IMG/VR virus record: IMGVR_UViG_3300049057_000066
Coordinates: 1 to 37,732 of that record
Source of the DNA: a virus
Strand: one strand, 5' to 3'
Length of the DNA: 37,732 nucleotides
Both the position numbers and the translations under genes were made by a program. The notes beneath the pieces were generated by a model. The model was not told the origin of the DNA. It ran no database searches and saw only the letters and a list, made by a program, of their open reading frames with translations. Numbering within the stretch: the first letter of the stretch is position 1; each line of letters starts with the position of its first letter. Positions 1,831 to 37,732 of this stretch are shown in pieces.

Positions 1831-2046
1831 ATGGAATTATACATTATTGTTATTTTGAATTTATTTATTCTATCGCTTATCGCAAACGTCTATTTATATA
1901 GACGCTCTAAAAACACCGTTAAAAAACAAATCACTTATGACGCTCGCCTGCTGATGCAAGATCTAACTGCTGGCGCGGCGATGGTGCGCATTACGCGCAT
2001 AGATCCAAACTCTATATTTTTAAAATCACCAAAGGATATGGGATGA
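1831..2046 (+). CDS. Small single-span membrane protein
   Basis: A 71-residue protein with an N-terminal transmembrane segment (about residues 3-22), then a basic stretch (YRRSKNTVKKQ) that would stay in the cytoplasm by the positive-inside rule. Its 3' end overlaps the dehydratase start by 4 bases, so it is translationally coupled to the sugar operon. No family is recognised. It could anchor or regulate something in that operon, but nothing in the sequence states this. Confidence 0.55.
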   Translation: MELYIIVILNLFILSLIANVYLYRRSKNTVKKQITYDARLLMQDLTAGAAMVRITRIDPNSIFLKSPKDMG

Positions 2047-2921
2047 GTTTACCTAGTGATATTCCCTTTAGGGTTTTTGTAACTGGCGCGACCGGCAGCC
2101 TAGGAAAAGCGGTCATCCGCCAATTAATTAATGATCCAAAATGGGTTTATGAGGTGACTGGTTTTTCACGCTGTGAACATCGGCAAAAACAAATGCCGTT
2201 TAAAGAAAATGTAACTCTTTATCTGGGTGATATTCGCGACCGTGATCGGCTAGTCGAGGCCACGCGCGACGCGGATATTATTTTTCACTTCGCAGCGCTT
2301 AAGCATGTTGATCTGTTAGAGGTAAATCCAGAGGAAAGTATTTACACGAACATTCTTGGCACGATGAATGTGCTTTACGCTCAACGTGTAAATAAAATTA
2401 AGCGTGTGGTTTTATCAAGTACTGACAAATCAGTTGAGCCCATAAATGTTTATGGCGCTAGTAAAATGATCGCCAATAAACTCGTCCTTAGAAATCCAAA
2501 CAACACGGTCTGTCTTTACGGAAATGTTATTGCTTCAAATGGCTCTGTGATCCCACTTTTTGTTAAATCTTTAAAAGAGGAAAAAGCCGTCAGCATAACC
2601 GATAAAAATATGACGCGCTTTTTGATTCGCTTAGAAGACGCTGCCAAATTTGTAATTGACGCTGGCTTTGCAGAAAACGGCGGGCTTCACGTCCCTCAAA
2701 TGAAATCATGCAAGGTAACCGATCTAGCTAAAGCGGTCGCTAGCATAATGAAAATACCGCGCTATAAGGTGAAGTATGTTGGCATCAGGCCAGGCGAAAA
2801 AATACATGAATGGCTAAAGTCAGCGCATGACGGCAAAGAAATTTGCTCGCTAACTGCTGAGCGCTTCAAGCCGCGTGAGCTAATCGAACTTATTCGCCCT
2901 TCAGTTGAGGCGCTACTATGA
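2043..2921 (+). CDS. NAD-dependent nucleotide-sugar 4,6-dehydratase/epimerase (PseB/CapD-like SDR)
   Basis: A short-chain dehydrogenase of the Polysacc_synt_2 family, to which UDP-GlcNAc 4,6-dehydratases (PseB, LegB, FlaA1) belong. It has the Rossmann motif TGATGSLG at 14-21, FHFAALKHVD at 81-90, the active-site stretch SSTDKSVEP at 125-133 (Asp128, Lys129) and YGASK at 137-141 (Tyr137, Lys141). At 292 residues it is slightly shorter than PseB and lacks the membrane domain of long CapD proteins, so it is soluble. In pseudaminic or legionaminic acid synthesis this is the first committed step, making the 4-keto-6-deoxy sugar. It overlaps the next gene by 4 bases. Confidence 0.88.
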   Translation: MSLPSDIPFRVFVTGATGSLGKAVIRQLINDPKWVYEVTGFSRCEHRQKQMPFKENVTLYLGDIRDRDRLVEATRDADIIFHFAALKHVDLLEVNPEESIYTNILGTMNVLYAQRVNKIKRVVLSSTDKSVEPINVYGASKMIANKLVLRNPNNTVCLYGNVIASNGSVIPLFVKSLKEEKAVSITDKNMTRFLIRLEDAAKFVIDAGFAENGGLHVPQMKSCKVTDLAKAVASIMKIPRYKVKYVGIRPGEKIHEWLKSAHDGKEICSLTAERFKPRELIELIRPSVEALL

Positions 2922-3532
2922 AGCATGACGTACTAATCATTGGCGCTAACGGCTCTATGGGCAGACGCTACCAAGCGATATTAAAATATCTGCAAAAGCG
3001 CGTGCTGCTTGCCGACATTGGCGATAGCGAGACTGATGTTTACATGAAAGCTGAGTGCGCCGAGGGCGTAATCGTGTGCACGCCCACAGACACGCACTAC
3101 AAAATTCTAAAAACGCTGGCGCCGCTAAATAAATATATGCTTTGCGAAAAGCCGGTAACTACAAGCTTAACCGAGCTAGCTGAGATTTTAGAGCTATACA
3201 AAAATCAACGCTTAAAGATGGTGATGCAGTATGCAGAGCTTAACACTGGCGATGGCGGACATAGCTTTTATGATTATTACAATCACGGGCGCGATGGTTT
3301 GCTATGGGATTGCATCCAAATTATTGGCTTGGCTCGCAGCTCTTGGAAAGTGGGCGAGGACTCGCCTGTTTGGAAATGCGCGCTAAACGGTAAAGAGCTC
3401 TCGCTTTCAGACATGGATATTGCGTACATCAGCATGATTAGAAAATGGTTTTTCGCGCCACGCGAGGAGCTTTTAAAAATTTACGACATACATAAGAAAG
3501 TTAGCGAGGCTATCAGTGCAACAAAGGCATGA
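2918..3532 (+). CDS. Gfo/Idh/MocA-family oxidoreductase, short form
   Basis: An NAD(P)-dependent sugar oxidoreductase. The N-terminal Rossmann domain is intact: GANGSMG at 9-15, TPTDTH at 55-60 and the family hallmark CEKP at 76-79. At about 204 residues it is much shorter than the usual 320-350; most of the C-terminal substrate-binding sheet is missing or reduced. The frame is clean and overlaps both neighbours, so this looks like a compact gene, not a broken one. Gfo/Idh proteins occur in many nonulosonate and surface-sugar clusters, where they oxidise or reduce a nucleotide or free sugar. The exact substrate here is unknown. Confidence 0.8.
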   Translation: MKHDVLIIGANGSMGRRYQAILKYLQKRVLLADIGDSETDVYMKAECAEGVIVCTPTDTHYKILKTLAPLNKYMLCEKPVTTSLTELAEILELYKNQRLKMVMQYAELNTGDGGHSFYDYYNHGRDGLLWDCIQIIGLARSSWKVGEDSPVWKCALNGKELSLSDMDIAYISMIRKWFFAPREELLKIYDIHKKVSEAISATKA

Positions 3533-4256
3533 GCAAAAAAGCGTAGTGATTGGTGTTCAAGCGCGCTCTACATCGAAACGCTTTCCGGGGAAAGTTTACG
3601 CCACACTTGGCAACGGCACAGTGCTTAGCAAAGTGCTAAGCGCAGTTAAAGGCGCAGCTGTGTACATTAACCAAAACGAAAGTAAGCGCGGAGTGCGCTG
3701 TAGCTATTGCTTGCTCGTGCCCTACGAGGACTCAATAGCGCAAAACTTTAAAGTGAACGTGCTAGAGGGGCCAGAGGATGACGTGCTCACGCGCTATAAG
3801 ATGATGGCGGATAAGTTTACGCCAGACTATATCGTGCGCATTACGGCTGATTGCCCGATGATACCAAGTCCAAGCATAACGAAAATTATTAAAACCGGGG
3901 TGAAATGTGGATATGACTATCTCGCAAACTTCTTTGAACTCAAAGAACAAAATAAACTCTATCGCTTGGTGCCTGATGGCTTTGAGTGTGAGTTTTTTTC
4001 TCGGCGGATGCTTGATTGGGCTGATAGCGAAGCAAAGAGTCAGAGCGATAGAGAGCATGTTACTACAATCATGCGAACCTATCCCAGTTGGGGAACGTAT
4101 GGCGTTGTTTTGCCTTATGAGAATAGAGAGACAAAGAAACTAAGCGTTGATACGGAAGAGGATTTGGCGCGCGTGCGTGCAGAGGTAAATTCGATTGATC
4201 AAGCGCAAATGGTAGCTGAACAATTGTTTGGGAGGACGCGTGTCCACAGGTACTAA
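3516..4256 (+). CDS. Cytidylyltransferase (SpsF / acylneuraminate cytidylyltransferase-like)
   Basis: Transfers CMP from CTP to a sugar, the activation step before transfer. Signatures: VIGVQARSTSKRFPGK at 11-26 (nucleotide-binding loop with Arg17, Arg22 and Lys26), RITADCP at 108-114, PDGFECEFFS at 153-162 and REHVT at 179-183. The length of 246 residues matches SpsF, KdsB and PseF-type enzymes. Start is GTG at 3516 with GCGAGG just upstream, overlapping the previous gene by 17 bases. With the NeuB-type synthase at 18338 it is the natural maker of a CMP-nonulosonate, though the exact sugar cannot be read from sequence. Confidence 0.85.
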   Translation: MQQRHEQKSVVIGVQARSTSKRFPGKVYATLGNGTVLSKVLSAVKGAAVYINQNESKRGVRCSYCLLVPYEDSIAQNFKVNVLEGPEDDVLTRYKMMADKFTPDYIVRITADCPMIPSPSITKIIKTGVKCGYDYLANFFELKEQNKLYRLVPDGFECEFFSRRMLDWADSEAKSQSDREHVTTIMRTYPSWGTYGVVLPYENRETKKLSVDTEEDLARVRAEVNSIDQAQMVAEQLFGRTRVHRY

Positions 4257-5457
4257 GAGCGCGTTTGATATCGAAACATATGTAAGAGCTAAGGAATGTA
4301 TCGCGCAAGACGGCGCACTGACTAACTCAAAACGACCAAGCTGTTTTGTTGAAGGAATTTACCCAACGCATTTGACCAGAGGACAAGATTGTTATGTGTG
4401 GGACACAAGAAATAATAGGTATTTGGATTTTTGCGGCGCTCTTGGTAGTAATTTACTCGGTTATGGAAACCACGAAATTGGAGCCGCTATTGCGGAGACT
4501 TACAGGATTGGTGCTACTTTATCTTTGGGTACAAATACTGAAATTGAGTTTGCTCAAGAGCTAAAATCAATCATCCCGTTTATAGACTTAATCAAAGTTC
4601 TAAAATCAGGCTCTGAAGCCTGTAATGCCGCGATTAAAATTGCACGCACTTATACCGACCGAGAGTTGGTTTTGTCAGAAGGATATCATGGAATCGGTGA
4701 CGACTTTATCTCCCTCACTCCGCCGGCGCTCGGCATTCCTAAGCGCCACTGGATGGGCGAGCTAAAGCATTGCCCGATTGACGAAAGAGTTGCCGCTGTA
4801 ATCGTTGAGCCGATCATGACAGAGATAACGCCAGAGCGTATCGAATGGCTAAAGAGCTTACGCGAGCAGTGCACGAAAGCTGGCGCGCTACTTATACATG
4901 ATGAAATTATAACGGGTATGCGCTTTCCGCAGTGGACGGCGAGCACATACTTTGGCATTCAGCCTGATCTCATTTGCTTGGGCAAAGCTCTTGGCGGTGG
5001 CTTGCCTATTTCAGTTGTTGGCGGAAAAAAAGAGATCATGAATTGCGGCGAGTATTTTGTGTCGAGCACATTCGCTGGCGAACGCTGCTCAATGGCAGCT
5101 GCGCTTAAAACTATACGCTTACTAAAAAATAAGTTTCGCATCGCTCATCTTTGGGAAAAGGGCGAGCGCTTTCAGAAAAAGTTTAACGAGATATATCCAG
5201 AGGGGGTACGCATTGAAGGCTACGCAACACGAGGAGTTTTCAAAGGAGACGAACTTGTTAAGGCCCTGTTTTGGCAAGAGGCGTGTAGAGCCGGGCTGCT
5301 CTTTGGTCCGAGTTTTTTCTTCGCGTTTCCTCATTGCTTGCTTGCTGATGATGTACTTCATGCTTGCACTGATATTTTAAATAGAATTAAGCGCGGCGAG
5401 GTAAAGCTATTGGGGCAGTTACCAAAATCGCCTTTTGCGCAAAAACAAAGGGAGTAA
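4240..5457 (+). CDS. Class III PLP-dependent aminotransferase (glutamate-1-semialdehyde aminomutase-like)
   Basis: A 405-residue PLP enzyme with SGSEA at 123-127 (phosphate and cofactor binding), GYHG at 148-151, IHDEIITG at 219-226 (Asp221 for the pyridine nitrogen) and the cofactor Lys249 in LGKALGGGLP. It resembles glutamate-1-semialdehyde 2,1-aminomutase. In this operon it more likely aminates a keto-sugar than makes tetrapyrrole precursors. GTG at 4240 is preferred over TTG at 4228 because GGGAGG ends 4 bases before it. It overlaps the cytidylyltransferase by 17 bases. Canonical Pse and Leg pathways use a DegT/StrS-family aminotransferase, so this is a variant. Confidence 0.85.
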   Translation: MSTGTKSAFDIETYVRAKECIAQDGALTNSKRPSCFVEGIYPTHLTRGQDCYVWDTRNNRYLDFCGALGSNLLGYGNHEIGAAIAETYRIGATLSLGTNTEIEFAQELKSIIPFIDLIKVLKSGSEACNAAIKIARTYTDRELVLSEGYHGIGDDFISLTPPALGIPKRHWMGELKHCPIDERVAAVIVEPIMTEITPERIEWLKSLREQCTKAGALLIHDEIITGMRFPQWTASTYFGIQPDLICLGKALGGGLPISVVGGKKEIMNCGEYFVSSTFAGERCSMAAALKTIRLLKNKFRIAHLWEKGERFQKKFNEIYPEGVRIEGYATRGVFKGDELVKALFWQEACRAGLLFGPSFFFAFPHCLLADDVLHACTDILNRIKRGEVKLLGQLPKSPFAQKQRE

Positions 5458-5677: not shown

Positions 5678-5970
5678 TGGTCCACATACTCGGTCAAAAC
5701 ACTTTCGCTGACAAGCTCGCGTACTTTCGCGCGTGGCAAAAGCGCATAACTGACGCTAACGCTGAGCTTGAAAAAGCTGATCAAGACTTTCAAGCTTGGA
5801 TGCGCACAACGCCAGAATTTAAAGCTGTAGCTGAAAAAGAAGCTGCACTAAAAGCTGACGCGGAAAAATATAAAGCTGAGCTAAAAGCATGGGCTGGCTT
5901 TACTGATGGCGAGCGTTCAAGCGTGCTTGATATGGTTGAAGCTATAAAAAAGGTGCAAGCGCTTGATTGA
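5677..5970 (+). CDS. Helical coiled-coil protein, unknown
   Basis: A 97-residue protein, nearly all predicted helix, with alternating Ala/Lys/Glu heptads from residue 20 to 75. It sits between the aminotransferase and acetyltransferase and is coupled to both (TAATG before; 8-base overlap after). No enzyme motifs are visible. It could be a scaffold or chaperone-like partner, or a passenger gene. Confidence 0.55.
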   Translation: MVHILGQNTFADKLAYFRAWQKRITDANAELEKADQDFQAWMRTTPEFKAVAEKEAALKADAEKYKAELKAWAGFTDGERSSVLDMVEAIKKVQALD

Positions 5971-6502
5971 TTTTGGCTTTGATCGCGTATTTCTGACGCC
6001 GTTTGATTCGGACGCAAATGCGTATGCGCTTCATTGGCGAAACGATCCGCGCATCTATAAGTGGTGCCGTCAGAGTGATATCATAAGTGATATCGCTCAA
6101 GACGAATGGTTTGCGCGCATGAGCAAAGATCCAAGCATAAGAATGTACGTAATTAACGCCGAAGTTTCAGAGGGCACTTTGACGAGATTCCCGTGCGGCG
6201 TGTGCGGCCTAACAAGCATAGACTACATCAATCGCCGTGCAGAGTTTAGCTTGTACATAGATCCGATTGCGCAACGTAAGGGCTACGCTAGAGCAGCACT
6301 CAAAACGCTGCTTAAGCATGGCTTTGATAACTTAAACTTAAACTTAATCTGGGGCGAAACTTTCGACGGCAATCCAGCTGCTAAAATGTTTGAGAGCTTA
6401 GGCTTTGTTAAAGAGGGCACGCGCCGCGAGTTTTACTTTAAAGAGGGGCGCTATATTGATGCGCACTTGTACAGCGTGAAGCGTGAGGAGGTCGTGTGGT
6501 AA
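5963..6502 (+). CDS. GNAT-family N-acetyltransferase (PseH/RimJ-like)
   Basis: Transfers an acyl group from acetyl-CoA to an amine. The N terminus (HWRNDPRIYKWCRQSD) resembles PseH and other sugar-amine acetyltransferases of the Acetyltransf_3 type. The acetyl-CoA loop is IDPIAQRKGYARAAL (residues 98-112, Q/R-x-x-G-x-A pattern), followed by the typical NPAAKMFESLGFVKEG near the C terminus. Length 179 is normal. The TTG at 5963 overlaps the previous gene by 8 bases. Lying after an aminotransferase, it would acetylate the amino group just installed, as PseH does at C4 of the Pse precursor. A protein N-acetyltransferase is the alternative. Confidence 0.82.
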   Translation: MIDFGFDRVFLTPFDSDANAYALHWRNDPRIYKWCRQSDIISDIAQDEWFARMSKDPSIRMYVINAEVSEGTLTRFPCGVCGLTSIDYINRRAEFSLYIDPIAQRKGYARAALKTLLKHGFDNLNLNLIWGETFDGNPAAKMFESLGFVKEGTRREFYFKEGRYIDAHLYSVKREEVVW

Positions 6503-14129: not shown

Positions 14130-14401
14130 CAGACATTTCGCATTTAACGCTTGAGACGCGCGCTTGCATTTGCGGGTGCGCCAACACTTTTCGCTGCTTG
14201 CCAACGAGCCCGCAGCGCTTTTGCATGCTCACGCACAACAAAGCGTACAACGAAAAGGGTTTACGCTTTGACGAGGACTTTGAGCAGCCGCACTGGACGC
14301 CGGAGCATAGGCGGCGAATGCAAGAGACCGTGAAAGCAGCTCGGCGCAAAACAGCAGTATGGCGAGCGTACTTAGCGGGCATCAGAAAGAAGGCAGCATG
14401 A
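14126..14401 (+). CDS. Small Cys/Arg-rich protein, possibly zinc-binding
   Basis: A 91-residue protein: CICGCANTFRCLPTSPQRFC supplies five Cys typical of a zinc finger; the C terminus is basic. ATGA overlap with RusA and a strong upstream GGAGG. Similar small HNH-less zinc proteins occur in phage replication modules. No function is assigned. Confidence 0.55.
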   Translation: MTDISHLTLETRACICGCANTFRCLPTSPQRFCMLTHNKAYNEKGLRFDEDFEQPHWTPEHRRRMQETVKAARRKTAVWRAYLAGIRKKAA

Positions 14402-14913
14402 GTAAGCTGCGCGTCATGCTTTTGCGTATTTTTACGCCAATTTCAAAGCTTATTTCGCATTTAGGTAAACCCGAGCCTAGACGCACTAAAAGCGATTATG
14501 AAAAGATTTTGGCGTTAGCGCTACCTGGGGATGTTTTTTTGTCCCGCGAGGACTGGCGGCTCTCTAATTTGCTTATACCGGGATTCTGGTCGCATGCCGC
14601 GATCTACTTGGGTCAAGATGTCCTAGAAGCCGTACCACCTCGCGTTAGGAAGCAAGACCTTGCTGAGTTTGTGTACAGCGTGGACAGCATCGCGCTTTTA
14701 CGTCCACGCTTACCGTTTACATTCGCTGATCACGCTAACCTTTACCTAGGGGCTGAGTACGATTGGATCTTTAGTGAGGATGGCGCTTGGTTTTGCAATG
14801 AGATGGTGCGCGACTATCTCTCGCGCTGCGGGCTACTCATGAGCGCACTTAAAACACCACAAGAGTTCTACAACAAACGTGACGAGTTCACACTTCTATA
14901 CGAGGCACGCTAA
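14398..14913 (+). CDS. Permuted NlpC/P60 papain-like enzyme (YiiX/YaeF type)
   Basis: A 171-residue protein with the circularly permuted catalytic order: PGDVFLSREDW (43-53), SHAAIYLG with His66, VLEAVPPRV (76-84), then the catalytic Cys133 in GAWFCNEMV. Family members act as cysteine peptidases or amidases on peptidoglycan or lipids. Its place among replication and regulatory genes, far from the lysis cassette, is odd. ATG at 14398 has an ATGA overlap; an earlier start at 14359 lies inside the previous gene. Confidence 0.75.
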   Translation: MSKLRVMLLRIFTPISKLISHLGKPEPRRTKSDYEKILALALPGDVFLSREDWRLSNLLIPGFWSHAAIYLGQDVLEAVPPRVRKQDLAEFVYSVDSIALLRPRLPFTFADHANLYLGAEYDWIFSEDGAWFCNEMVRDYLSRCGLLMSALKTPQEFYNKRDEFTLLYEAR

Positions 14914-18310: not shown

Positions 18311-18328
18311 GTCCACGCTTATGTGGAC
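18311..18328 (+). promoter_or_regulatory. Hairpin next to the ribosome binding site of the synthase gene
   Basis: GTCCAC (18311-18316) and GTGGAC (18323-18328) form a 6-bp stem with a 6-base loop, ending at the GGGGGAAG that precedes the ATG at 18338. Such a hairpin can control ribosome access. Confidence 0.4.
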
Positions 18329-18337
18329 GGGGGAAGC

Positions 18338-19345
18338 ATGAAAATAATCGCTGAAGTTGGCTCTAACTGGCACTCGCTCGCTGACTGCTTAAACTCAATC
18401 GCTTTAGCTAAAAACTGCGGCGCTGACGCCGTGAAGTTCCAGCTCTACGACCGCAAAGCTTTGTACGGCATGAATAAGTCACCGCTAGGACTTTCGCGCA
18501 TGGCGCTTGACGGTAGCGTTGAAACTAGCGACGAGCTAATCCGTTGCGATCATATTGCTGGCGCTCTCGATCCCGACTGGCTCCCACAGCTAAAAGCTAA
18601 AGCCGATAGCGTGGGCATTGAGTTCATGTGCTCAGCTTTCAGCGTGCCCTTGCTAAACGAAGTAGACAAGTACGTTAGCACGCACAAAGTCGCAAGCGCT
18701 GAGCTAACTCACGTGCGTATGCTTGAGCGTTTGCGTGAGATCGGTAAGCCCGTGATCTTAAGCACAGGCGCAAGCAGCATGAATGACATAAGCATTGCGC
18801 TAAAAGTTTTAGGCGATACGCCTGTTACGCTTTTGTATTGCGTGGCGAGCTATCCGGCGAATTACGTGAACTTTGCTAAAATGGTAGAGTTATTTAACCG
18901 CTTCGGTAAACCTATCGGTTTTTCAGATCATACGTTAGATGTTTTAAACGTCCCGCTTGCAGCACGCAATCTTGGCGCAAGCGTAATCGAGAAACATGTT
19001 AACTTGGTTGGCGTAAAAGACACGCCCGATGCCCCACACTCCCTAAGCCTCGACCATTTTAAGCATATGTGTAAATACTTGAGGTATAGTGACAATAGCG
19101 TCCCGCTCGAAGACGATAGCGAGCGCGATATGTACACCACGCATAACCGCCGCTTGATCGCCACGCGTGACATAAAAGCTGGCGACAAATTAATTGAAAA
19201 CGAAAACTTTGGTATATTTCGCGCGCTTAAGCCAGATACTAGCGCTCTTAGCCCTTGGGCTATTGACAAGGTTAATGGGCGTGTGTGTAAAATAGATATC
19301 AGAGCCGGATCTGGCATTACGCCTGCAAGTATAGATTTAAATTAG
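18338..19345 (+). CDS. N-acetylneuraminate/pseudaminate synthase family (NeuB/PseI/LegI-like)
   Basis: Condenses phosphoenolpyruvate with a six-carbon amino sugar to form a nine-carbon nonulosonic acid. A 335-residue protein (ATG 18338): IIAEVGSNW at 3-11, AVKFQLYD at 31-38, ILSTGASS at 140-147, GFSDHTL at 194-200 and VIEKHVN at 216-222 mark the NeuB TIM barrel. A C-terminal SAF antifreeze-like domain (about 265-330, TRDIKAGDKL) closes the active site in the dimer. It completes the pathway begun by the genes at 2043-6502 but sits 12 kb away, directly before the large terminase. Sequence does not tell which sugar is made. Confidence 0.9.
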   Translation: MKIIAEVGSNWHSLADCLNSIALAKNCGADAVKFQLYDRKALYGMNKSPLGLSRMALDGSVETSDELIRCDHIAGALDPDWLPQLKAKADSVGIEFMCSAFSVPLLNEVDKYVSTHKVASAELTHVRMLERLREIGKPVILSTGASSMNDISIALKVLGDTPVTLLYCVASYPANYVNFAKMVELFNRFGKPIGFSDHTLDVLNVPLAARNLGASVIEKHVNLVGVKDTPDAPHSLSLDHFKHMCKYLRYSDNSVPLEDDSERDMYTTHNRRLIATRDIKAGDKLIENENFGIFRALKPDTSALSPWAIDKVNGRVCKIDIRAGSGITPASIDLN

Positions 19346-19455: not shown

Positions 19456-20703
19456 GTGGGCTGTGGTACGCAATGGGGTAAAACTCTCGTTGGCGGCTTG
19501 CGCATGAAAATTAAAATGCACAAGTATAGCTCGGCTAACGACGCGCACATCATCACCGCGCCTACATATAAAACTCTACATCAATCAACACTGCCAGCCT
19601 TTCTAAAGCTCATGGAAGGCTACGGCAAATATAACTCTAAGCATGACATTTTTGAAATGTACTCTGGCGCAATCGCTTACTGTCGTACCGAAACTGATCC
19701 TGACTCTGTCGTTGGTATCACAAACGTGCGCCATATTTGGGGCGATGAAGCCGGAAAATATCGCTTATATTTCTGGGAAAACTTGCAAGCGCGTGCGGAT
19801 GCATTTGGCGCGACCATTGATCTAACTACATCGCCTTACGCTTACAACTGGATCGCTAAAGATTTAGTTAAAGGCGCACTTAAAGGTACACGCCCTGACA
19901 TTGAACTTATTCAAGCCTCAAGCTGGGAGAATAAATACCACAGCTTGCACGATGAAAAAGCGCGAGAGTTTAAGCGCGCGACAATGGATGAGCGCAGATT
20001 TAACATGATCTATGGCGGTGAGTTCGGGCAAATGATAGGTCTTGTTTACGATAGCTTTGATCAAGACGTAAACATTGTTTCGCCCACGCAGCTGCCAGCA
20101 GGGACGAAATACTACGCTGGCATTGATTGGGGATTTACCGAGCCATTTGTTTTAGTCGTTCGCGGCGTAACGCCTGCAGGCGATCACTTTCAAGTTTCAG
20201 AATACTACAAAACAGGGCTTACGATTTCAGATATTATCCGCGTTGCTAAAAGTAAAAAAGAAACCTGGAACATTCAGACATTCTATTGCGGTAAAGATCA
20301 GCCGGGCTACATCGAAGAGTTTAACCGCGCAGGGCTATCCGCGATCAGCGCTGACAATGACGTGCGCCGTGGAATAGACGCGCACTACGAACTCATCCGC
20401 ACACGCAGATATAAAATCTTTCGCGACACTTCTCCGCACACGCTTGATGAGCTTGAAACATACCACTACCCAGAGCCAGAAGACATTGCGCCTGACGATA
20501 AAGCTAAAGATCAGCTGCCTGTGCAAAATAATGATCACGCGCTAGATGCTAATCGCTACGTTACTATGGGCACGTATCGCACAGTGGAAAAGCGCGCACC
20601 TATAGTTCACGACGAGAGCACAAAGCCCAAGCCAGTACATGATTTAAATAAATTTTTTAACTCGCTTAAAAAGAAAAAAGCAAACGCGGGAGTTATGTAT
20701 TGA
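19456..20703 (+). CDS. terL: Terminase large subunit (packaging ATPase/nuclease)
   Basis: Powers DNA entry into the procapsid and cuts the genome. From GTG 19456: Walker A GCGTQWGKT at 2-10 (Lys9), Walker B IWGDEAG at 94-100, then an RNase-H-like nuclease with AGIDWGF (Asp224) and HALDANRY (Asp364). Walker A normally lies 30-50 residues into the protein, and homologous-looking residues (IIPHSVKQERAIFSDKRITLV) continue upstream in frame to about 19384. There is no ATG, GTG or TTG in frame back to the stop at 19351, so the true start is probably a rare ATT or ATC. About 415 residues as listed. Confidence 0.9.
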   Translation: MGCGTQWGKTLVGGLRMKIKMHKYSSANDAHIITAPTYKTLHQSTLPAFLKLMEGYGKYNSKHDIFEMYSGAIAYCRTETDPDSVVGITNVRHIWGDEAGKYRLYFWENLQARADAFGATIDLTTSPYAYNWIAKDLVKGALKGTRPDIELIQASSWENKYHSLHDEKAREFKRATMDERRFNMIYGGEFGQMIGLVYDSFDQDVNIVSPTQLPAGTKYYAGIDWGFTEPFVLVVRGVTPAGDHFQVSEYYKTGLTISDIIRVAKSKKETWNIQTFYCGKDQPGYIEEFNRAGLSAISADNDVRRGIDAHYELIRTRRYKIFRDTSPHTLDELETYHYPEPEDIAPDDKAKDQLPVQNNDHALDANRYVTMGTYRTVEKRAPIVHDESTKPKPVHDLNKFFNSLKKKKANAGVMY

Positions 20704-21872
20704 TACTGCACGGTGATTGTTTACTTAAACTAAAAGAGCTAGAGCCAAATAGCGTTGACGCTATCGTCACCGATCCACCATACGGCTTAAAGTTCATGGG
20801 TAAAAAGTGGGACACGTCAGTGCCAAGTGTAGAGTTATGGCGTGAATGTTTACGCGTACTAAAGCCCGGCGGTCACGTTTTAAGTTTTGGCGGGACGCGC
20901 ACGTATCATCACATGGCGATGAACATTGAACTCGCTGGCTTTGAAATACGCGATCAGCTGCAATGGATTTACGGGAGTGGATTTCCGAAAAGCACAAACG
21001 TAGCTTTAAGGATTGATAAGGAAGCCGGAGCCATCGGAAACCGTGGCAAAGGATTCAATGCCGCAGGCCAAGGGATCAGCTTAAATCAAAATAAAGAATT
21101 ACGTTCGGATCATCCCGAATATGTTCCGCCGGAGTTTAAAACCGACGCCGCCAAAGAATGGCAAGGCTGGGGCACAGCCCTCAAACCCGCTAACGAGCCG
21201 ATTGTTTTAGCGCGTAAACCCTTAAGTGAAAAAACTGTAGCTGAGAATGTTTTGCGCTGGGGAACGGGTGCGATAAATGTAGATGCTGGGAGGATAGCTG
21301 CGAGCATTGAGGATATTAAAAGAACAAATCGCTTGAATCATAAAGGGAATTTCGACTGGAAACATTCGGAAAATACGGCTTTCAAAATGGGTCAAGGGGC
21401 TGATATTTCCCAGGGCCGCTGGCCGAGTAATTTACTTCTCGATGAAGACGCGGCAAAAATGTTGGATGCGCAGAGTGGTGTAAGTAAAAGTACAGGCGGT
21501 AAAGGCCGCGCCACTCAAAAAGCTACGCTTTCTTTTGGCGGCGGTGAGCGCGTTGGCGGGTACGAACCAAGGCTTCGCGCAAACGCTGGCGGGCTTGGGG
21601 ACTCCGGCGGCGCCTCACGTTTTTTCTATGTAGCGAAAGCCTCAAAGCATGAACGCGGCGAAGGCAACGCGCACCCCACTGTCAAACCAATAAAGCTCAT
21701 GCAGTATTTAATTAAACTTATCACACCGCCAAAAGGCACTGTGCTTGATCCATTTATGGGCTCAGGCTCAACGGGAGTAGCGGCGAAAAGCTTGGGCTTT
21801 GAGTTTATCGGCATAGAGCTTGAGCCACAGTATGCGCAAATTGCCGAGCGTAGAATCGAGGCTACAGCATGA
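20700..21872 (+). CDS. Site-specific DNA methyltransferase (N6-adenine or N4-cytosine, beta class)
   Basis: Methylates phage DNA using S-adenosylmethionine, probably protecting against host restriction. The catalytic DPPY is at residues 25-28, before the AdoMet site DPFMGSGSTG (350-359), which is the beta-class order. A long middle region (about 95-330) would hold the target recognition domain. Codon style there (about 20990-21440) differs from the ends, suggesting a swapped specificity segment. TTG start overlaps the terminase stop by 4 bases, with GGGAG upstream. No partner restriction enzyme is visible. Confidence 0.88.
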   Translation: MILHGDCLLKLKELEPNSVDAIVTDPPYGLKFMGKKWDTSVPSVELWRECLRVLKPGGHVLSFGGTRTYHHMAMNIELAGFEIRDQLQWIYGSGFPKSTNVALRIDKEAGAIGNRGKGFNAAGQGISLNQNKELRSDHPEYVPPEFKTDAAKEWQGWGTALKPANEPIVLARKPLSEKTVAENVLRWGTGAINVDAGRIAASIEDIKRTNRLNHKGNFDWKHSENTAFKMGQGADISQGRWPSNLLLDEDAAKMLDAQSGVSKSTGGKGRATQKATLSFGGGERVGGYEPRLRANAGGLGDSGGASRFFYVAKASKHERGEGNAHPTVKPIKLMQYLIKLITPPKGTVLDPFMGSGSTGVAAKSLGFEFIGIELEPQYAQIAERRIEATA

Positions 21873-25617: not shown

Positions 25618-26544
25618 ATGCCCTCTTTAAGTTATAATAACTTGAGTGCTGTTACGGAAAGAAAATTTATCCCAAAGATGGTTGATAATATTTTCGATTC
25701 TATGGTGCTCTTAAAAAGATTAAAAGATGGTGACAGCTACGAGAAACTCGACGGCGGTACCACTATCATGCAACCCCTTAACTACGCTATTCCCGGCGCT
25801 GGCGGATGGTTTCAAGGCTCTGACACAATGGATACTTCTGACTCAGAAGTTATCACAAGTGCGGAGTATGCTTGGGCGCAAGCTTACTACACTATCGCTA
25901 TCACTGGACAAGATGAGCGCAAAAACTCTGGCGCGCCAGCAGTTCTAAAGCTTATCAAAGAAAAAGTGAAAATTGCTGAGCAAGCAATGATGCAGCTTTT
26001 AGGTACTGGCGTCTATAATGCTGGCTCGACTACTAACGCAATCGTTGGTCTTCGCGCTATCGTTGGAACTGGTAACACTATCGGCGGTATCTCGCAAAGC
26101 TCATACTCATGGTGGCAAGGTCAAGTAGATAGCACGACTACTACTTTAACACTCGCTGCAATGGCATCACGCATGAGCGCTTGTCGTGTTGGCTCTGATC
26201 GTCCAAGTGTTATTACAACTGATAGCACTAACTGGGACCGCTACCACAATTTGCTACAACCGCAGCAACGCTTCCAAGATGCTCAGTCTGCTAAAGGCGG
26301 ATTCAGCTCATTGATGTTCCAAGGCATCCCGGTGCTTGACGATGCTCAATGTCCTTCGAGCCATATGTTCTTCTTAAACGAAGACTACTTGAAACTCTAC
26401 GTCCATAAAGACGCTGATTTCAAATTTGAGCCATTTGCTAAGCCCGTAAACCAAGACGTCAAAATAGCCAAGATTTTACTTATGTGCTCTTTTGGGTCTT
26501 CTAACAATCGCATGCACGGCAAACTCAGTGCATTAGCGGCTTAA
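25618..26544 (+). CDS. Major capsid protein
   Basis: The icosahedral shell subunit. A 308-residue protein of the HK97-fold type, judged by size, order and composition. N-terminal helix SLSYNNLSAVTERKFIPKMV, then LKDGDSYEKLDGGTTIMQPL and a long central helix KLIKEKVKIAEQAMMQLLG, with a C-terminal FKFEPFAKPVNQDVKIAKIL strand. Strong ribosome site GGAAGGAT. Immediately after the scaffold and before a decoration-like protein. Confidence 0.85.
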   Translation: MPSLSYNNLSAVTERKFIPKMVDNIFDSMVLLKRLKDGDSYEKLDGGTTIMQPLNYAIPGAGGWFQGSDTMDTSDSEVITSAEYAWAQAYYTIAITGQDERKNSGAPAVLKLIKEKVKIAEQAMMQLLGTGVYNAGSTTNAIVGLRAIVGTGNTIGGISQSSYSWWQGQVDSTTTTLTLAAMASRMSACRVGSDRPSVITTDSTNWDRYHNLLQPQQRFQDAQSAKGGFSSLMFQGIPVLDDAQCPSSHMFFLNEDYLKLYVHKDADFKFEPFAKPVNQDVKIAKILLMCSFGSSNNRMHGKLSALAA

Positions 26545-26556
26545 GAGAGGTGACGA

Positions 26557-27018
26557 ATGGGATTTTACGGTAACGGACCACATTCATTAGACGCAATTTC
26601 TGGCGTAACATCATCTCCCGTTGTTGAACTCGGCACACGCCGATGGGTTAACGGCGAGGAGTATGTTTACTGCTACAACAACACAGGTTCAGCGGCTACA
26701 GCTGGCGCGGCGATGGTAACATCGGGCATAAGCGGGTTTTCATTTACTCGCTCAAGCACAGCGTCACTTGATTTGCCAATGTGCTTTGTGAAACACGCAG
26801 CGCCTGACGTTGGTCAGTACTTTTGGGGACTCGTTCGCGGGTCAGTAAACGTACTGTCAGCAACGATTTCAGCGGGCAATCCAATTACTATCGGAAATAA
26901 CGGCGCGGTAGCTAGCTATCTTGCTGGCTCATTCCCGACGGGCGTTGTTTTCGGCAAAATGCTGGAAGCCGCTTCTGGATCTACTGCGTCGTTAGCTTAC
27001 GTTAAGTGCTACGGCTGA
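26557..27018 (+). CDS. Candidate capsid decoration protein
   Basis: A 153-residue, Gly/Ser/Thr/Ala-rich beta protein directly after the coat gene. Repeated short strands and a pattern like DUF2190/head-fibre proteins (ISAGNPITIGNNGAV) fit a decoration or cement protein on the shell. It precedes the Maf-like gene, so it is one of the possible glycan acceptors. Confidence 0.6.
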   Translation: MGFYGNGPHSLDAISGVTSSPVVELGTRRWVNGEEYVYCYNNTGSAATAGAAMVTSGISGFSFTRSSTASLDLPMCFVKHAAPDVGQYFWGLVRGSVNVLSATISAGNPITIGNNGAVASYLAGSFPTGVVFGKMLEAASGSTASLAYVKCYG

Positions 27019-27045: not shown

Positions 27046-28065
27046 ATGAGTAGAAAAGTTGAAATTACATTAGATTTGCAAAACTATATTGTTAATCCGC
27101 CGATTGAGCCGGAAAACTTGTACATTAACTCAACAAGAAACGACGGTCCAACCGTTAAAGCTTGGAAGGGCACATGGATAAGTCAAATCAAGGCCAATAA
27201 GGCAAAATATAAAAGCTTTGCAGAGAACGGTGTAGGACAGCTTTTTAACTTAAATTCAAAGCGTCCCGCGATTATCGCGGGCGCTGGCCCTTCGCTAAAA
27301 CATAACGGCGCTTTGTTAAAAGACCGTGGAGATATTCCTTTAATATCATGCTTACACAATTTCCATTTCTTCGAGGATAACGGTGTTACCCCTGATTACT
27401 ACGTCACGCTTGATGCGGGCGATGTAACCGTAGGCGAAGTCACCGAGGGTGGTAAACACCCGCCGGAATGGTATTGGGAGCGCACAAAAGATAAAACGCT
27501 TGTTGCATTTATTGGCACAAGCCCACTGCTATTAGAAAAATGGCTTGGGAAAATTTTATTTTACAATGCGCCCATGCCTGACCCAGAAATAAAAAAAGAA
27601 ATTGCAGAGCTTGAGGAGTTTCACACTTACATTTCAACTGGCGGCAATGTTTTAGGCGCATGCCTTTATTTAGCAAAAGCTATTTTGGGCTCTAATCCGA
27701 TTGCCTTTGTGGGCGCTGACTTTTGTTTTAGCTATGACAAAAAATTTCATGGCTGGGACTCAAAGTACGACGCTAACTTAGGAAACGTCATGAGATTAAA
27801 TGACATTTACGGCAATAAAGTGTTGTCGTGGCAATCTTACTTAGGTTTTAAACAATGGTTTGAATACATCGCAATGCGAGTGCCCGGCATCTACATTAAT
27901 TGTAGTGAGGGCGGAACTTTTGGAGCATATCCAGAGGGAAATCTCATGGCGATTAAGCAAATGGAGTTAGCAGAATTTTTCGATATGTATGATTTAAACC
28001 GACACATTAAAGAGCAATGCTTATACCCGAGTAAGAAAACCGACATGGGCGTTGTATTATTTTAA
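27046..28065 (+). CDS. Maf/DUF115 (MptE-like) family protein, putative nonulosonate transferase
   Basis: In motile bacteria, Maf proteins attach pseudaminic or legionaminic acid from the CMP-sugar to flagellin Ser/Thr. The 339-residue product has the MAF_flag10 core: RPAIIAGAGPSL at 73-84, GVTPDYYVTLDAGD at 113-126, STGGNVLGACLYLA at 197-210 and PIAFVGADFCFS at 218-229. It lacks the extra terminal domains of long Maf proteins. It lies between decoration and Ser/Thr-rich structural genes, with a strong AAAGGAG. Other DUF115 members are pterin kinases, so the transferase role leans on the co-encoded nonulosonate genes. Confidence 0.78.
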   Translation: MSRKVEITLDLQNYIVNPPIEPENLYINSTRNDGPTVKAWKGTWISQIKANKAKYKSFAENGVGQLFNLNSKRPAIIAGAGPSLKHNGALLKDRGDIPLISCLHNFHFFEDNGVTPDYYVTLDAGDVTVGEVTEGGKHPPEWYWERTKDKTLVAFIGTSPLLLEKWLGKILFYNAPMPDPEIKKEIAELEEFHTYISTGGNVLGACLYLAKAILGSNPIAFVGADFCFSYDKKFHGWDSKYDANLGNVMRLNDIYGNKVLSWQSYLGFKQWFEYIAMRVPGIYINCSEGGTFGAYPEGNLMAIKQMELAEFFDMYDLNRHIKEQCLYPSKKTDMGVVLF

Positions 28066-28082: not shown

Positions 28083-28352
28083 ATGGCTTTCACTATTTCA
28101 GTAATTCAAAAAACAGTTTGGGGTGATAACAAAGTACACACTCTGTCGTGCACAGTCGATTCAGCTTCCGGCAATATCGACACAGGTCTTTCAAACGTTT
28201 ACGGTCTTACTCACGCGTGTGCATCTATGGCGACAGCTGGCATCCGTTTGCAGCGTAACCTTGGCTCTAACTCTACAGCCATTCCGGGTTATGTTAACGT
28301 AAACTCTGCCGCTGCCGGTGACGTTTTCATTTTAACCGTTTACGGGAAATAA
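28083..28352 (+). CDS. Small Ser/Ala/Thr-rich virion protein
   Basis: An 89-residue, beta-rich protein with many Ser, Thr and Asn (residues 18-80), between the Maf-like gene and structural genes. Probably a capsid or head-fibre component and a plausible glycan acceptor. AAGAGGT upstream. No family is recognised. Confidence 0.6.
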   Translation: MAFTISVIQKTVWGDNKVHTLSCTVDSASGNIDTGLSNVYGLTHACASMATAGIRLQRNLGSNSTAIPGYVNVNSAAAGDVFILTVYGK

Positions 28353-28705
28353 TGCGAAAGCTGTTAGCTTGGCTTAAGTACCTTTTGCCGCTTGCAATTG
28401 TTTTCTTGTTTAAGAAGTCAAAAGCAAGCGAGCTTACGTACAGTCATTTTTTAGATCCAGCTGAAGCTGAGAAGCGCGACGAGTTTCTCGCCTCGGCCAA
28501 GCGTCCTGACTGGAACGAGGACGATTGCTATAGCGCAAAGCTATTTGTGCAAGAGCTATTTAACGCGCGCGCAATCGTTGATCTGAACGATCTACCGCTG
28601 CATTACTTTCACTTAGTCGATGATACCTTTCTGCTTGGCGCTAAAGCTAGCGTTGATGGTTTAGCAAAAAAACTTGCTGACGAAAAAGTTAGAAGGGGTA
28701 TCTAA
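28352..28705 (+). CDS. Structural-region protein with an N-terminal membrane or signal segment
   Basis: A 117-residue protein: hydrophobic residues 4-20 (LLAWLKYLLPLAIVFLF), then charged helices. It overlaps both neighbours by one base (TAATG). It could be an ejected protein crossing membranes or a minor head protein. No family is recognised. Confidence 0.5.
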   Translation: MRKLLAWLKYLLPLAIVFLFKKSKASELTYSHFLDPAEAEKRDEFLASAKRPDWNEDDCYSAKLFVQELFNARAIVDLNDLPLHYFHLVDDTFLLGAKASVDGLAKKLADEKVRRGI

Positions 28706-29580
28706 TGGCAATTGTTTTCGCTGTACACGGAGATAGTTTAGACGCTAGATACTCAAGCGGCGGTAAGACTGGCACACGCACAAGTTCCACACTTGTCGTA
28801 CCAAACACTACAACCTCCGGCGCGCTTGGCGGCGTAGCGATTGACTTTAACACTGTCGCTAGCTCTAAAGCGGCTACGTGGAACGCACAGCTTAACACGC
28901 CAAATGGGCGCACGCTTTCTGTTAATCACGGCTACATCCCGCAATACTCTGGCGCCCCATCATCACGCCGCGCGATCATAAACTTGTCAGCAAACTCTGG
29001 GCGCTTAGGCGAAATAGAGCTAACGCACGAGACAACAACGGGAAATATCAACGTCACAGCGGTAAACGCGGCTGGGACTGTGTGTATCAACGCGGTGAGC
29101 GCTGGCGCATACTCGCCAACATCAGGCACAAGAAACGATATTGGTTTTTCTTGGGACGGCACTACTACAGCGAACTCTTTTAAAGTCTATGTAGATTCCG
29201 TGCTTCTCGGTAGCATCACGCCGGGCACAGCGTTTGAGGCTGGCTGGACTAACACATATTTTAAAGAAATTATTTTAGGCGTTTCGCGTGCGGCGAGCGC
29301 GGCACTACACCGCACAGATGAGCTCGTGATTTGGGATACAGTCGTAGACTTTACCGCCAACGTAACGCTTGAATCTGGCCCCGGCCTTTTAAACGGCGCC
29401 AGCAGATCAAGTTACGTGAGCGTTTCAGCGTTTGACGGTTTACAAAACACAAGCCCGGGCGATTCAAACGTGAAAAACGGCACGACTTGGTATCTAAACG
29501 GAGTTTTACAAACAGGCACAGAGGTCGCAGCTAGCGGCGACGGTTCACATTGCGCGAGCAACTTAAGTTGGAGCAATTAA
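28705..29580 (+). CDS. LamG/concanavalin-like head-fibre or decoration protein
   Basis: A 291-residue, Ser/Thr/Gly-rich beta protein. Residues 60-215 resemble a LamG jelly-roll: IGFSWDGTTTANSFKVYVDSVLLGSI and FKEIILGVSRAASAALHRTDELVIWD are typical end strands of such domains, which often bind sugars. It would project from the capsid or tail and is a candidate receptor-binding or glycosylated surface protein. Confidence 0.6.
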   Translation: MAIVFAVHGDSLDARYSSGGKTGTRTSSTLVVPNTTTSGALGGVAIDFNTVASSKAATWNAQLNTPNGRTLSVNHGYIPQYSGAPSSRRAIINLSANSGRLGEIELTHETTTGNINVTAVNAAGTVCINAVSAGAYSPTSGTRNDIGFSWDGTTTANSFKVYVDSVLLGSITPGTAFEAGWTNTYFKEIILGVSRAASAALHRTDELVIWDTVVDFTANVTLESGPGLLNGASRSSYVSVSAFDGLQNTSPGDSNVKNGTTWYLNGVLQTGTEVAASGDGSHCASNLSWSN

Positions 29581-29594
29581 AAAAGGAGTTTTAA

Positions 29595-29951
29595 ATGTCT
29601 CACGGTCCTCAATCAGTTTTCGGTCCATATGTGATCGCATCAGGAGCTTCTACTTGCTCTGAGATAGTTTTCGATCGCTCATGGAAAAGCATTTATCTAC
29701 AAGTTGGCACTATGTCCACTGGCGTAAACTTAAACGTTCACGCTAAGGGACTATCTACCAACAACTACTACACGGTTTTTCATCCGAGCATTAACTCAAG
29801 CACTGTCACTAACAATCCGTTTGTGATTTCTGCTGGCGTTGGCTCTGGCGGTGGAGTTGTTCCATTTCCAAACGGCCTGCCCAATGTGCGTGTCGTTGGT
29901 ACCGGCGTGATCTCTGGCGGATGTAGCTTCTACGTAATTTGCTCAGACTAA
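29595..29951 (+). CDS. Small Ser/Thr/Gly-rich structural protein
   Basis: A 118-residue beta-rich protein with strong Ser/Thr content (STNNYYTVFHPSINSSTV). AAAAAGGAG upstream. Likely a virion surface component; possible acceptor for the Maf-like enzyme. Confidence 0.55.
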   Translation: MSHGPQSVFGPYVIASGASTCSEIVFDRSWKSIYLQVGTMSTGVNLNVHAKGLSTNNYYTVFHPSINSSTVTNNPFVISAGVGSGGGVVPFPNGLPNVRVVGTGVISGGCSFYVICSD

Positions 29952-34883: not shown

Positions 34884-37207
34884 TGGCGGCACCGTGGGAA
34901 AAGTATCAACAAGCTAACGCCGCTCAAGTGGAGCAAGAGCCACCACCATGGGAGAAATACGCCCCCGCCCCCGAGTCACGCATGATAGAGGCTGGCATCG
35001 AGGGCTTAGGAAAAGGCGCAACCTTTGGCGCTCTACCGTACCTGCAAGCTGCCGCAGAGAAAGCAATCACTATTGGCGGAAGCATGGGGCGCGACATGGG
35101 CTCGCCGATGAGTGAGCTCGTGCGCCAATATCGTGAGCGCGGCGCTGGCCTACGTGAGCAACATCCTGGTATTACGCTAACGGGTGAGCTCGTGGGTGGG
35201 TTTGCGCCAGGGCATGCGATTTCTAAAGGCGTTGGCTTGGTAGCAAGCGCTATTCCTAAAGCGCAAGCGATCGCTACTGCTGCGCCAACGGTTGGAAAAA
35301 TCGCTCGCGGAGCGACCGAGGGCGCGGTTATGGGCGCTGCTTACACGCCTGACGAGGGCGCTGATTTAGAGCGGCGTTTGGAGCAAGCTAAATTTGGTAC
35401 GCTTGTCGGCGGGGCAATTCCCGCAGCGATAGCAGGTGTCGGCGGAGCTGGTAAGATCGTGAAAGCCGGAGCCACAAAAGCCTTTTCCGCAGTTACGGGT
35501 GTAAAAGAAGACGTGCTGCGAGAGTTTGCTAGCGATCCGCAAAAGTATTTGAATGCACCTTCACGCCAAGAGATTGTCGCTAACGTTACCAAAGTAGTTA
35601 ACGATCTAGACGATAAGGTTAGACAAGGGCAAATAGCTGTAGAGGACGCGAAACAAATTTACCGCGAGTCAATCGCAAGCTTAAAGAGCGAACGCACTGA
35701 CAAATACAAAGAGGCAAGCGAAGCTTTGCGCTATGGCTTACGCAATTTAGATGAGGCGTATAAAGGTGTAGTTAACGATTTGAAAGCCAAGCCAGCGCCA
35801 ACAAGTTTACAACCACAAGTTAGCAGCGCCATCAGTGATCTAAAAAACTTAGTGCAACAAGGCAGTGACGAATCATACAAAATTTTAGAAAACGATAAAG
35901 GGGCTTACGGCATTCGAAGTGCGGGCAAAGTTTTGCGTGACATGGCCGATCAAATGGATATTCAGCCATGGACCAACGAGGCGGCCTCAACCGGAAAAGA
36001 TTTAGCGGCACGAGTAAACCATGCTGGCCCAGTTATGCAGGCGAGCCGCCCCGTTACCGCTGAGTCACGAGGCGTGCAAAACACTATTAGAGCTTTTGCC
36101 AAAATGCTTGAGCAAACTCCCGAGGCGGTTCCAGCAAAAGAGCTTAAAAAGATTTTACAACAAATTGATAATTCAGGCCGCGCGCAATACGGCCAGCCGG
36201 GTTTTGATAGCCGAGTATCGCAAGCCTACAAGCTTGTTAGAAAAGTAATTGATGAGGGCATTAAGAGTAAAAACCCAGAGTATCGGGCCAAGATGATTGA
36301 AGTTGCACAAAACACTGGTCTGCTTGATGAGTCGATAGCGGCATTCGGTAGCCCCGATAAAGCCATTTCAAAACTTGCAAGTATAGCTTCGCCGAAGGGA
36401 AAACTCACTGCCGAGACGCTTAACAAACTAGGCCAAGCCACCGGCAATGACTTTGACTCCCCAATTCGCGACTATATAGAAACTCAAAGTTTGTTAAAAA
36501 ATCCTCAAAAGCTTGAGGGCATTAAGCGCGGGCTTCCTGAATTTGTCGAAAGTCAAAAACTTGCAAAGGCCGCTAAACAAGCTGAGTTTGCAAAAGATCC
36601 GCGTGAAATAGTACGCCTTTCTAAAAACAGCATGGAAAAACGGAGTCTTGATTTCGCGGGCAATGAACTAAATTTAGCAAAAGAGATCAAAGGCAAGGCG
36701 ATTGGCTGGACTGAGGGCAACGTAAACGAAAAGATTAACGCCGTAATGCGCGGAAAAGATTTCATCAAAGGTCAGCTGTCAGAGCTTGGTAAGCTTGGCA
36801 ATCAAGATTTTGTAGACCAAGTCAATAAGCTAAGGGTTAACGAAGCGTTTACAAAAACAAACATGAACGGCTCACGTAACGTAAACTTTTGGTCGCTCAT
36901 GGGCTTTGGCGCCGCCGGCGGCGGTGGGCCTGGCGCTATGATTGGCGCGGCTACTGGCATGCTTATGGATAAGTACGGCCCAGCGGTAGCTAAAAACGTA
37001 ATCTTGGGCATTAGCAAAATAAAGAGCCAGCCTACGGTGCAATCACTTATGAAAGCTGGCATCACTTCGCAAAAAGTAGCGCAAGAGTTAGCGGATGATT
37101 TCGCTAAAGCCGTGGGCGTGCCCGCACAATCGCTAAACGCTGACGCAATTACGCGTAGGTTAATTGGCGAAAATGAAAAAGGCGAAAACAATTTCGCAAG
37201 CAAGTAA
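34883..37207 (+). CDS. Large DNA-ejection protein (P22 gp16-like position)
   Basis: A 774-residue protein from ATG 34883 (TAATG with the previous stop), not the TTG at 34865. Two APWEKY/PPWEKY-type motifs occur in the first 40 residues, as in other podovirus injection proteins. A Gly/Ala-rich segment (about 125-200) could be a membrane-active helix pair, and long coiled-coil helices follow. Another small-residue segment (FGAAGGGGPGAMIGAATGML) lies near 680. No lysozyme motif is seen. Confidence 0.7.
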   Translation: MAAPWEKYQQANAAQVEQEPPPWEKYAPAPESRMIEAGIEGLGKGATFGALPYLQAAAEKAITIGGSMGRDMGSPMSELVRQYRERGAGLREQHPGITLTGELVGGFAPGHAISKGVGLVASAIPKAQAIATAAPTVGKIARGATEGAVMGAAYTPDEGADLERRLEQAKFGTLVGGAIPAAIAGVGGAGKIVKAGATKAFSAVTGVKEDVLREFASDPQKYLNAPSRQEIVANVTKVVNDLDDKVRQGQIAVEDAKQIYRESIASLKSERTDKYKEASEALRYGLRNLDEAYKGVVNDLKAKPAPTSLQPQVSSAISDLKNLVQQGSDESYKILENDKGAYGIRSAGKVLRDMADQMDIQPWTNEAASTGKDLAARVNHAGPVMQASRPVTAESRGVQNTIRAFAKMLEQTPEAVPAKELKKILQQIDNSGRAQYGQPGFDSRVSQAYKLVRKVIDEGIKSKNPEYRAKMIEVAQNTGLLDESIAAFGSPDKAISKLASIASPKGKLTAETLNKLGQATGNDFDSPIRDYIETQSLLKNPQKLEGIKRGLPEFVESQKLAKAAKQAEFAKDPREIVRLSKNSMEKRSLDFAGNELNLAKEIKGKAIGWTEGNVNEKINAVMRGKDFIKGQLSELGKLGNQDFVDQVNKLRVNEAFTKTNMNGSRNVNFWSLMGFGAAGGGGPGAMIGAATGMLMDKYGPAVAKNVILGISKIKSQPTVQSLMKAGITSQKVAQELADDFAKAVGVPAQSLNADAITRRLIGENEKGENNFASK

Positions 37208-37235
37208 CGATTTATTTTTAAAGGAGAAACGTAAA

Positions 37236-37250
37236 ATGAAAAGCGAATAA
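37236..37250 (+). other. Four-codon mini ORF (MKSE) before the tail fibre gene
   Basis: AAGGAG at 37221-37226 is correctly spaced for ATG AAA AGC GAA TAA, not for the tail fibre ATG at 37255. The tail fibre could be translated by re-initiation after this mini ORF. It may be an upstream control peptide. Confidence 0.35.
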
Positions 37251-37254
37251 ATAA

Positions 37255-37732
37255 ATGGGTTACACTACAGTCACGTATAGTTTCGCGAACTCGACCACGT
37301 CAGACGCCACGCAAGTTAACCAAAACTTCACTGACATACTAAACGGTTTAAGCGATGGCACTAAAGATCTAAACGTCAGCGCTATCACTGCTGCTGGCGC
37401 CGCCACATTCAATGGCGCAGTTACGCTTGGTAACGGCACGCCTGACGATATTACTATCGGCGGCTCGCTTGCTAGCTCAATCGCGGTCAAAACTACATTT
37501 AGCTATGATCTAGGCTCTAGCACGGTTGGCTGGAAAAGCTTTTACTTAGGCTCTAACGATAGCGCGGCTCGTACTGTGCGCTTGATTGCTGGCGCTGTCG
37601 GCTCAAGTTACACAATGACGCTGCCAACTGGCGCGGGCTCAGCTGGGCAAGTGGTTAGAAACTTGGGCTCTGGCTCTCTAGCGTTTTCAGATGACGCTGG
37701 CGAAACTATAAATTTAGGGCTCGCCGCAAGCG
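37255..37732 (+). CDS. Tail fibre or tailspike protein (partial, N-terminal part)
   Basis: Runs off the window end after 159 codons. The N terminus (NSTTSDATQVNQNFTDILNG, then DGTKDLNVSAITAAG) and the repeated Gly/Ala/Thr/Ser strands resemble the virion-attachment domains of phage tail fibres. A TAA stop immediately precedes the ATG in frame, so this is the earliest start. The receptor-binding end lies outside the window. Confidence 0.75.
   Translation, partial: MGYTTVTYSFANSTTSDATQVNQNFTDILNGLSDGTKDLNVSAITAAGAATFNGAVTLGNGTPDDITIGGSLASSIAVKTTFSYDLGSSTVGWKSFYLGSNDSAARTVRLIAGAVGSSYTMTLPTGAGSAGQVVRNLGSGSLAFSDDAGETINLGLAAS

Follow-up and report, generated by a model that had tools for sequence, protein, structure and literature searches.

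The locus and its surroundings

The window, that is, the whole stretch of DNA analysed here (37,732 nucleotides), is a 37.7-kb virus record belonging to a lineage of uncultured aquatic phages. Its landmark genes and its capsid block are as follows.

11222: integrase
19456: TerL
22376: portal, P22/SU10-type
25618..26544, + strand: major capsid protein (MCP; phrog_9953, E 7.5e-60)
26557..27018, + strand: decoration protein by model fold, S/T-rich, candidate acceptor
27046..28065, + strand: Maf-core/MptE-like protein, 339 aa, predicted nonulosonate transferase (GT; PF01973, fold, conservation)
28083..28352, + strand: 89-aa S/T-rich protein (p89), downstream neighbour in a conserved order, S+T mean 21.0%, candidate acceptor
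28705..29580, + strand: 291-aa S/T-rich protein (24%), no Pfam match
29595..29951, + strand: 118-aa S/T-rich protein (p118), lineage-wide, S+T mean 22.5%, candidate acceptor
30447: adaptor, SU10-type

A DNA methyltransferase gene (N6_N4_Mtase, 20700-21872) is flanked by TerL and the portal region, a Peptidase_C92 protein (permuted papain-like amidase) is encoded at 14359-14913 and an Amidase_3 lysin candidate at 763-1359. Tail genes reach the end of the window and a sugar cassette comes near its start. When its ends (1-427 and 37207-37732) were compared with the relative G001, the window appeared circularly permuted, and no end repeat of at least 20 nt was found in it.

GT lies two genes 3' of the major capsid protein. 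It is an ATG ORF with an AAAGGAG ribosome-binding site directly 5', separated by 27 nt from the 5' gene and by 17 nt from the 3' gene. The original prediction had placed it between a decoration-like protein (26557) and Ser/Thr-rich proteins (28083, 28705 and 29595), and the ORF, the fold and the Ser+Thr contents agree with this arrangement; its list of neighbours had passed over an ORF at 28352-28705, between p89 and the 291-aa gene, whose 117-aa product is not S/T-rich (6.8%). The 117-aa protein has a hydrophobic N-terminus, and both it and the 291-aa protein, neither of which matches Pfam, are restricted to the window and its closest relative (L002). The further statement that GT is under the capsid promoter was not borne out, as promoter-like sites (16 versus 13.4 +/- 3.3 in shuffles) and terminators (11 versus 10.6 +/- 3.3) are both at chance level. 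Judged by gene spacing only, co-transcription of the capsid block is plausible.

GT corresponds to the core of Maf glycosyltransferases

The GT product matches PF01973 (MptE-like; E 5.5e-23, 82 bits versus a cut-off of 34.6), the domain common to Maf glycosyltransferases and archaeal MptE. An AlphaFold model of GT (pLDDT 86) was compared with PDB structures. The best match was Maf 5mu5 (Z 21.4, 238 residues, 2.8 A), above archaeal MptE 8sd5 (Z 14.2) and mammalian sialyltransferases (Z about 9.5). Published work on Maf describes a core resembling the sialyltransferase Cst-II, with a Rossmann-like domain on its N-terminal side and a helical domain on its C-terminal side (PMC11339370). GT gave no Pfam match to the N-terminal Maf_flag10_N domain (PF20157), for which a genuine Aeromonas Maf scores 1.6e-47, and its length leaves no room for either flanking domain. 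The phage protein is thus the Maf core alone; since the N-terminal domain is missing, we call it Maf-like and do not count it as a canonical Maf. The gene had been described as a glycosyltransferase-like Maf gene; its ORF, Pfam family and fold bear this out, but it lacks Maf_flag10_N, and it adjoins capsid genes, with no linkage to flagellin or flagellar genes. It is linked to nonulosonate biosynthesis genes (see below).

Across 85 lineage sequences, 51 positions of GT are at least 97% conserved, including G79-x-G-P, S101, H104-N105, D123, H235 and W237. GT had no match in PHROGs or in 50,697 GenBank phage records (tblastn), and peptide patterns revealed no cellular or prophage relative in 84,980 species genomes. 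The phiX174 spike G matched the GT profile at E about 0.02, which we took as chance.

Membership of PF01973 and the match to MptE also fit a different function, in which GT is an MptE-type 6-hydroxymethyl-dihydropterin pyrophosphokinase or another nucleotide-binding enzyme of this family, unrelated to the sugar genes. We regard this as highly improbable, since Maf is clearly the better structural fit, GT co-varies with sugar enzymes (see below) and a pterin kinase would have no obvious reason to lie among capsid genes.

A nearly complete nonulosonate pathway is predicted in the same genome

The donor pathway went unseen in the original prediction, and it is the stronger part of the finding. 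The following genes were identified.

2043..2921, + strand: PseB/FlaA1-like UDP-GlcNAc 4,6-dehydratase (PF02719, 4.4e-72)
2918..3532, + strand: short Gfo/Idh/MocA-type oxidoreductase, 204 aa (PF01408, 4.8e-12)
3516..4256, + strand: SpsF/NeuA-like cytidylyltransferase (CTP), predicted CMP-nonulosonate synthetase (PF02348, 2e-12)
4228..5457, + strand: class-III (GSA-type) aminotransferase (AT3; PF00202, 2.1e-46)
5963..6502, + strand: PseH-like GNAT N-acetyltransferase (TIGR03585, 9.7e-20, under the equivalog cut-off)
18323..19345, + strand: NeuB/PseI-like nonulosonic acid synthase with a C-terminal SAF domain, 5' of TerL (PF03102, 7.3e-51; SAF, 2.1e-5)

Dehydratase, aminotransferase, acetyltransferase, synthase and cytidylyltransferase classes are therefore all present, the aminotransferase being of class III and not DegT. 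NeuB carries SDHT and EKH motifs and has the pseudaminic acid synthase 8h2c as its best PDB profile match (2.4e-47). The dehydratase matches TIGR03589 PseB (9.6e-69, under the equivalog cut-off) and has the catalytic motifs STDK and YGASK when aligned to FlaA1 (2gn4); the cytidylyltransferase matches the PDB cytidylyltransferase 6oew (2.9e-13), and the aminotransferase has the PLP-lysine motif LGKALGGG. The GNAT gene is the conserved final gene of the cassette. With about 200-240 aa in most relatives, the Gfo-type oxidoreductase is far smaller than usual. Scores stayed below the NCBIfam equivalog cut-offs for PseB (231.8 of 407.75 bits), PseI (157.3 of 340.25) and PseH (71.2 of 93.1), so that these matches do not name the exact sugar, which may be other than pseudaminic acid. 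No PseG-type hydrolase was matched by Pfam or NCBIfam among the window proteins scanned, which represent part of the ORFs.

Among cellular proteins, the closest relatives of the aminotransferase sit in clusters with PseB, cytidylyltransferase and NeuB, and in Aeromonas rivipollensis such a cluster adjoins FliD and a Maf of full length. This matches the published Group I islands for flagellin glycosylation, which combine a class-III aminotransferase with maf-1 and some of which are without PseG (PMC7874193). Independently of the phage data, these cellular clusters link the genes found in the phage to protein glycosylation with nonulosonates.

Conservation of GT and of the pathway

Two GT searches and one capsid-protein search of IMG/VR retrieved about 110 related contigs. 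GT has the same place in about that many contigs, so its position is not due to chance. Among the 80 contigs retrieved by the capsid protein, 78 carry GT and the other two end too early; GT is a core gene of the lineage. The order MCP, decoration protein, GT is constant, and the 89-aa protein comes next wherever it was detected. The proposed comparison of relatives with and without the gene could be made only with an outgroup: no member without GT occurs among the lineage contigs long enough to judge, and in seven distant phages whose capsid protein is related, no homologue of GT, of the sugar genes, of p89 or of p118 was detected, although proteins as short as the last two diverge fast, which makes this comparison weak.

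In 35 related records, NeuB was found in 30, the aminotransferase in 30, and the cytidylyltransferase and dehydratase in 28 each; among records of at least 33 kb, 21 of 22 have NeuB. All five cassette genes keep one order in 15 of 20 cassette regions, and CTP-AT3-GNAT is kept in 19 of 20. The background frequency is low: tblastn against the 50,697 GenBank phage records found NeuB in two, and GT and CTP in none. With NeuB as the sole query, 15 virus contigs were retrieved. Ten of them belong to the lineage, and GT is present in each of the seven that continue beyond the capsid genes; most of these lineage contigs also came from the GT search, so not all are independent. In an unrelated virus contig (L280, 7818-10603), the gene for a 651-aa MptE-like protein overlaps NeuB by 4 nt, which is a second viral instance of the transferase-synthase pairing.

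One near-complete relative (G008, contig L166) has lost NeuB, the cytidylyltransferase and the dehydratase and retains a degenerate aminotransferase remnant (L166:10141-11091, 316 aa) without the PLP-lysine motif. Its GT is intact, with every conserved position kept. The local pathway is thus not indispensable, because this phage keeps an intact GT without most sugar genes; it may depend on host nonulosonate or be losing the system.

GT co-varies with the sugar genes

Co-variation was assessed from pairwise distances across 63 contigs after removal of the signal shared with portal/p631, with 1000 permutations. GT correlated with AT3 (partial r 0.45, 0/1000 permutations), GNAT (0.42), NeuB (0.39, 0/1000) and CTP (0.38, 10/1000), and weakly with the PseB-like dehydratase (0.24, 83/1000), as against 0.21 for p89, 0.16 for the decoration protein and 0.09 for MCP, its physical neighbours. 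The cassette values were obtained from 15-18 contigs, and pairwise distances depend on one another, so the sizes are rough and it is the ranking that matters. GT, though embedded in the capsid block, behaves like a member of the sugar module.

Candidate acceptors

The model of the 26557 protein (pLDDT 83) has only phage decoration and head-fibre proteins as its best matches, namely the HFTV1 decoration protein (Z 14.2), the phi29 gp8.5 base (Z 11.4) and TW1 (Z 9.6). Ser+Thr makes up 19.6% of this protein, 20.2% of the protein at 28083, 24.4% of that at 28705 and 21.2% of that at 29595, compared with about 10-12% of most other proteins of the window. The same holds for lineage means, which are 20-22.5% for the decoration protein, p89 and p118 and 10-11% for portal, TerL, GT and NeuB, with MCP, the adaptor and p631 intermediate at 16-18%. 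Capsids are put together in the cytoplasm. Maf, too, acts there, before export (PMC4065374). The decoration fold, the Ser+Thr contents, the outgroup and the shared compartment together favour decoration proteins as acceptors. Co-variation singled out none of the candidates, the GT signals for the decoration protein, p89, p118 and p121 all being small and close to one another (0.16-0.21).

The sugar might instead be placed on another part of the virion, such as the tail, an adhesin or the major capsid protein, or on phage DNA. The cassette adjoins tail genes in G001, and the MCP, adaptor and p631 are moderately S/T-rich as well; against this, GT is invariably beside the decoration gene, and we know of no precedent for Maf-type enzymes modifying DNA. 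These acceptors seem quite improbable to us.

The late-operon location does not exclude an acceptor on the host surface. The same pathway and transferase could modify host LPS, capsule, pilin or flagellin, thereby blocking superinfection or altering adsorption, and this would accord with the usual action of Maf enzymes on flagellin, with the existence of phage genes that alter host nonulosonate glycans (epaA/epaB, PMC12053666) and with the integrase, which makes lysogeny possible. However, GT is fixed among capsid-region genes in the about 110 contigs and does not occupy a moron position, it lacks the N-terminal domain of Maf and has no space for the C-terminal one, and late expression would probably come too late for exclusion. 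We therefore consider modification of the host surface unlikely.

A model for glycosylation of the virion

The observed gene identities, fold, conservation of the set, cellular counterpart and co-variation suggest an activity, a sugar and an acceptor for GT. We propose that the phage makes a sialic-acid-like nonulosonate of the pseudaminic-acid family and glycosylates Ser/Thr of its virion, most likely on decoration proteins, and put the probability of this reading at roughly two in three. The dehydratase (2043) would act on UDP-GlcNAc, followed by amination by the class-III aminotransferase (4228) and N-acetylation by the GNAT (5963). UDP would be released by a hydrolase, perhaps that of the host, NeuB (18323) would condense the sugar with PEP, and the cytidylyltransferase (3516) would activate the product to the CMP-sugar. 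Finally, still in the cytoplasm, the stripped-down Maf-type enzyme (27046) would attach the sugar to Ser/Thr of virion proteins, most likely of the decoration proteins whose genes flank its own.

That GT acts on virion proteins during assembly, and not on host flagellin, was the core of the original prediction. The invariant gene order, the decoration fold, the missing Maf N-terminal domain and the co-varying pathway make this the best-supported reading, in which the activity, the exact sugar and the acceptor are inferred. For the lineage as a whole we lean towards the broader picture that a widespread group of uncultured phages has as core genes a near-complete pathway to a pseudaminic-acid-like nonulosonate and a minimal Maf that stems from flagellin glycosylation, with which decoration proteins would be coated in a self-made, dedicated nine-carbon sugar. 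If so, machinery for flagellin glycosylation has been reused for the virus particle, and capsids of aquatic phages can present sialic-acid-like sugars, which bears on adsorption, particle stability and recognition. GT provides enzymology with a minimal Maf of a single domain, and with the about 110 known contigs the presence of virion glycans can be put to the test.

Comparison with known systems

Virion glycosylation itself is already known, from few phage systems; what is new here is above all that the phage encodes a donor pathway and that this pathway is coupled to the transferase. A literature search, with most subscription papers and all of bioRxiv outside its scope, gave no match on phage nonulosonate pathways or phage Maf. 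In mycobacteriophages, capsid proteins reportedly undergo phage-encoded glycosylation. According to Freeman et al. 2023, as cited in PMC12691614, phage virion glycosylation is known in this group. The arrangement characteristic of virion glycosylation, a phage-encoded transferase within structural genes, is found here too; unlike in the mycobacteriophages, the phage is predicted to make the sugar itself, a nonulosonic one, and the transferase is of Maf type. In an Acinetobacter prophage, epaA/epaB epimerise the nonulosonic sugar of the host capsule (PMC12053666). These phage genes likewise act on a nonulosonic acid, but there is neither a full pathway nor a transferase in the capsid operon.

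Archaeal MptE (HPPK, 8SD5) shares the PF01973 family and fold with GT but is a weaker structural match with another gene context. Maf (PseD), as represented by Magnetospirillum 5MU5, Aeromonas caviae Maf1 and Clostridium botulinum Maf, has a PF01973 core and fold like those of the phage GT and, as in the phage, is partnered by a pathway to a CMP-nonulosonate. Maf proteins are about 630-700 aa long, compared with 339 aa for GT, and only they have Maf_flag10_N and the C-terminal helical domain; they are encoded beside flagellin, whereas GT is encoded among capsid genes. The Group I islands of Aeromonas contain a PseB-like enzyme, cytidylyltransferase, class-III aminotransferase, acetyltransferase, NeuB/PseI and Maf, the same set as in the phage. 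The Aeromonas cluster in L183 additionally has a DegT aminotransferase and an aldo/keto reductase, both absent from the phage set, and, unlike in the Group I islands, the phage sugar genes are spread over three genome sites and are not accompanied by flagellin.
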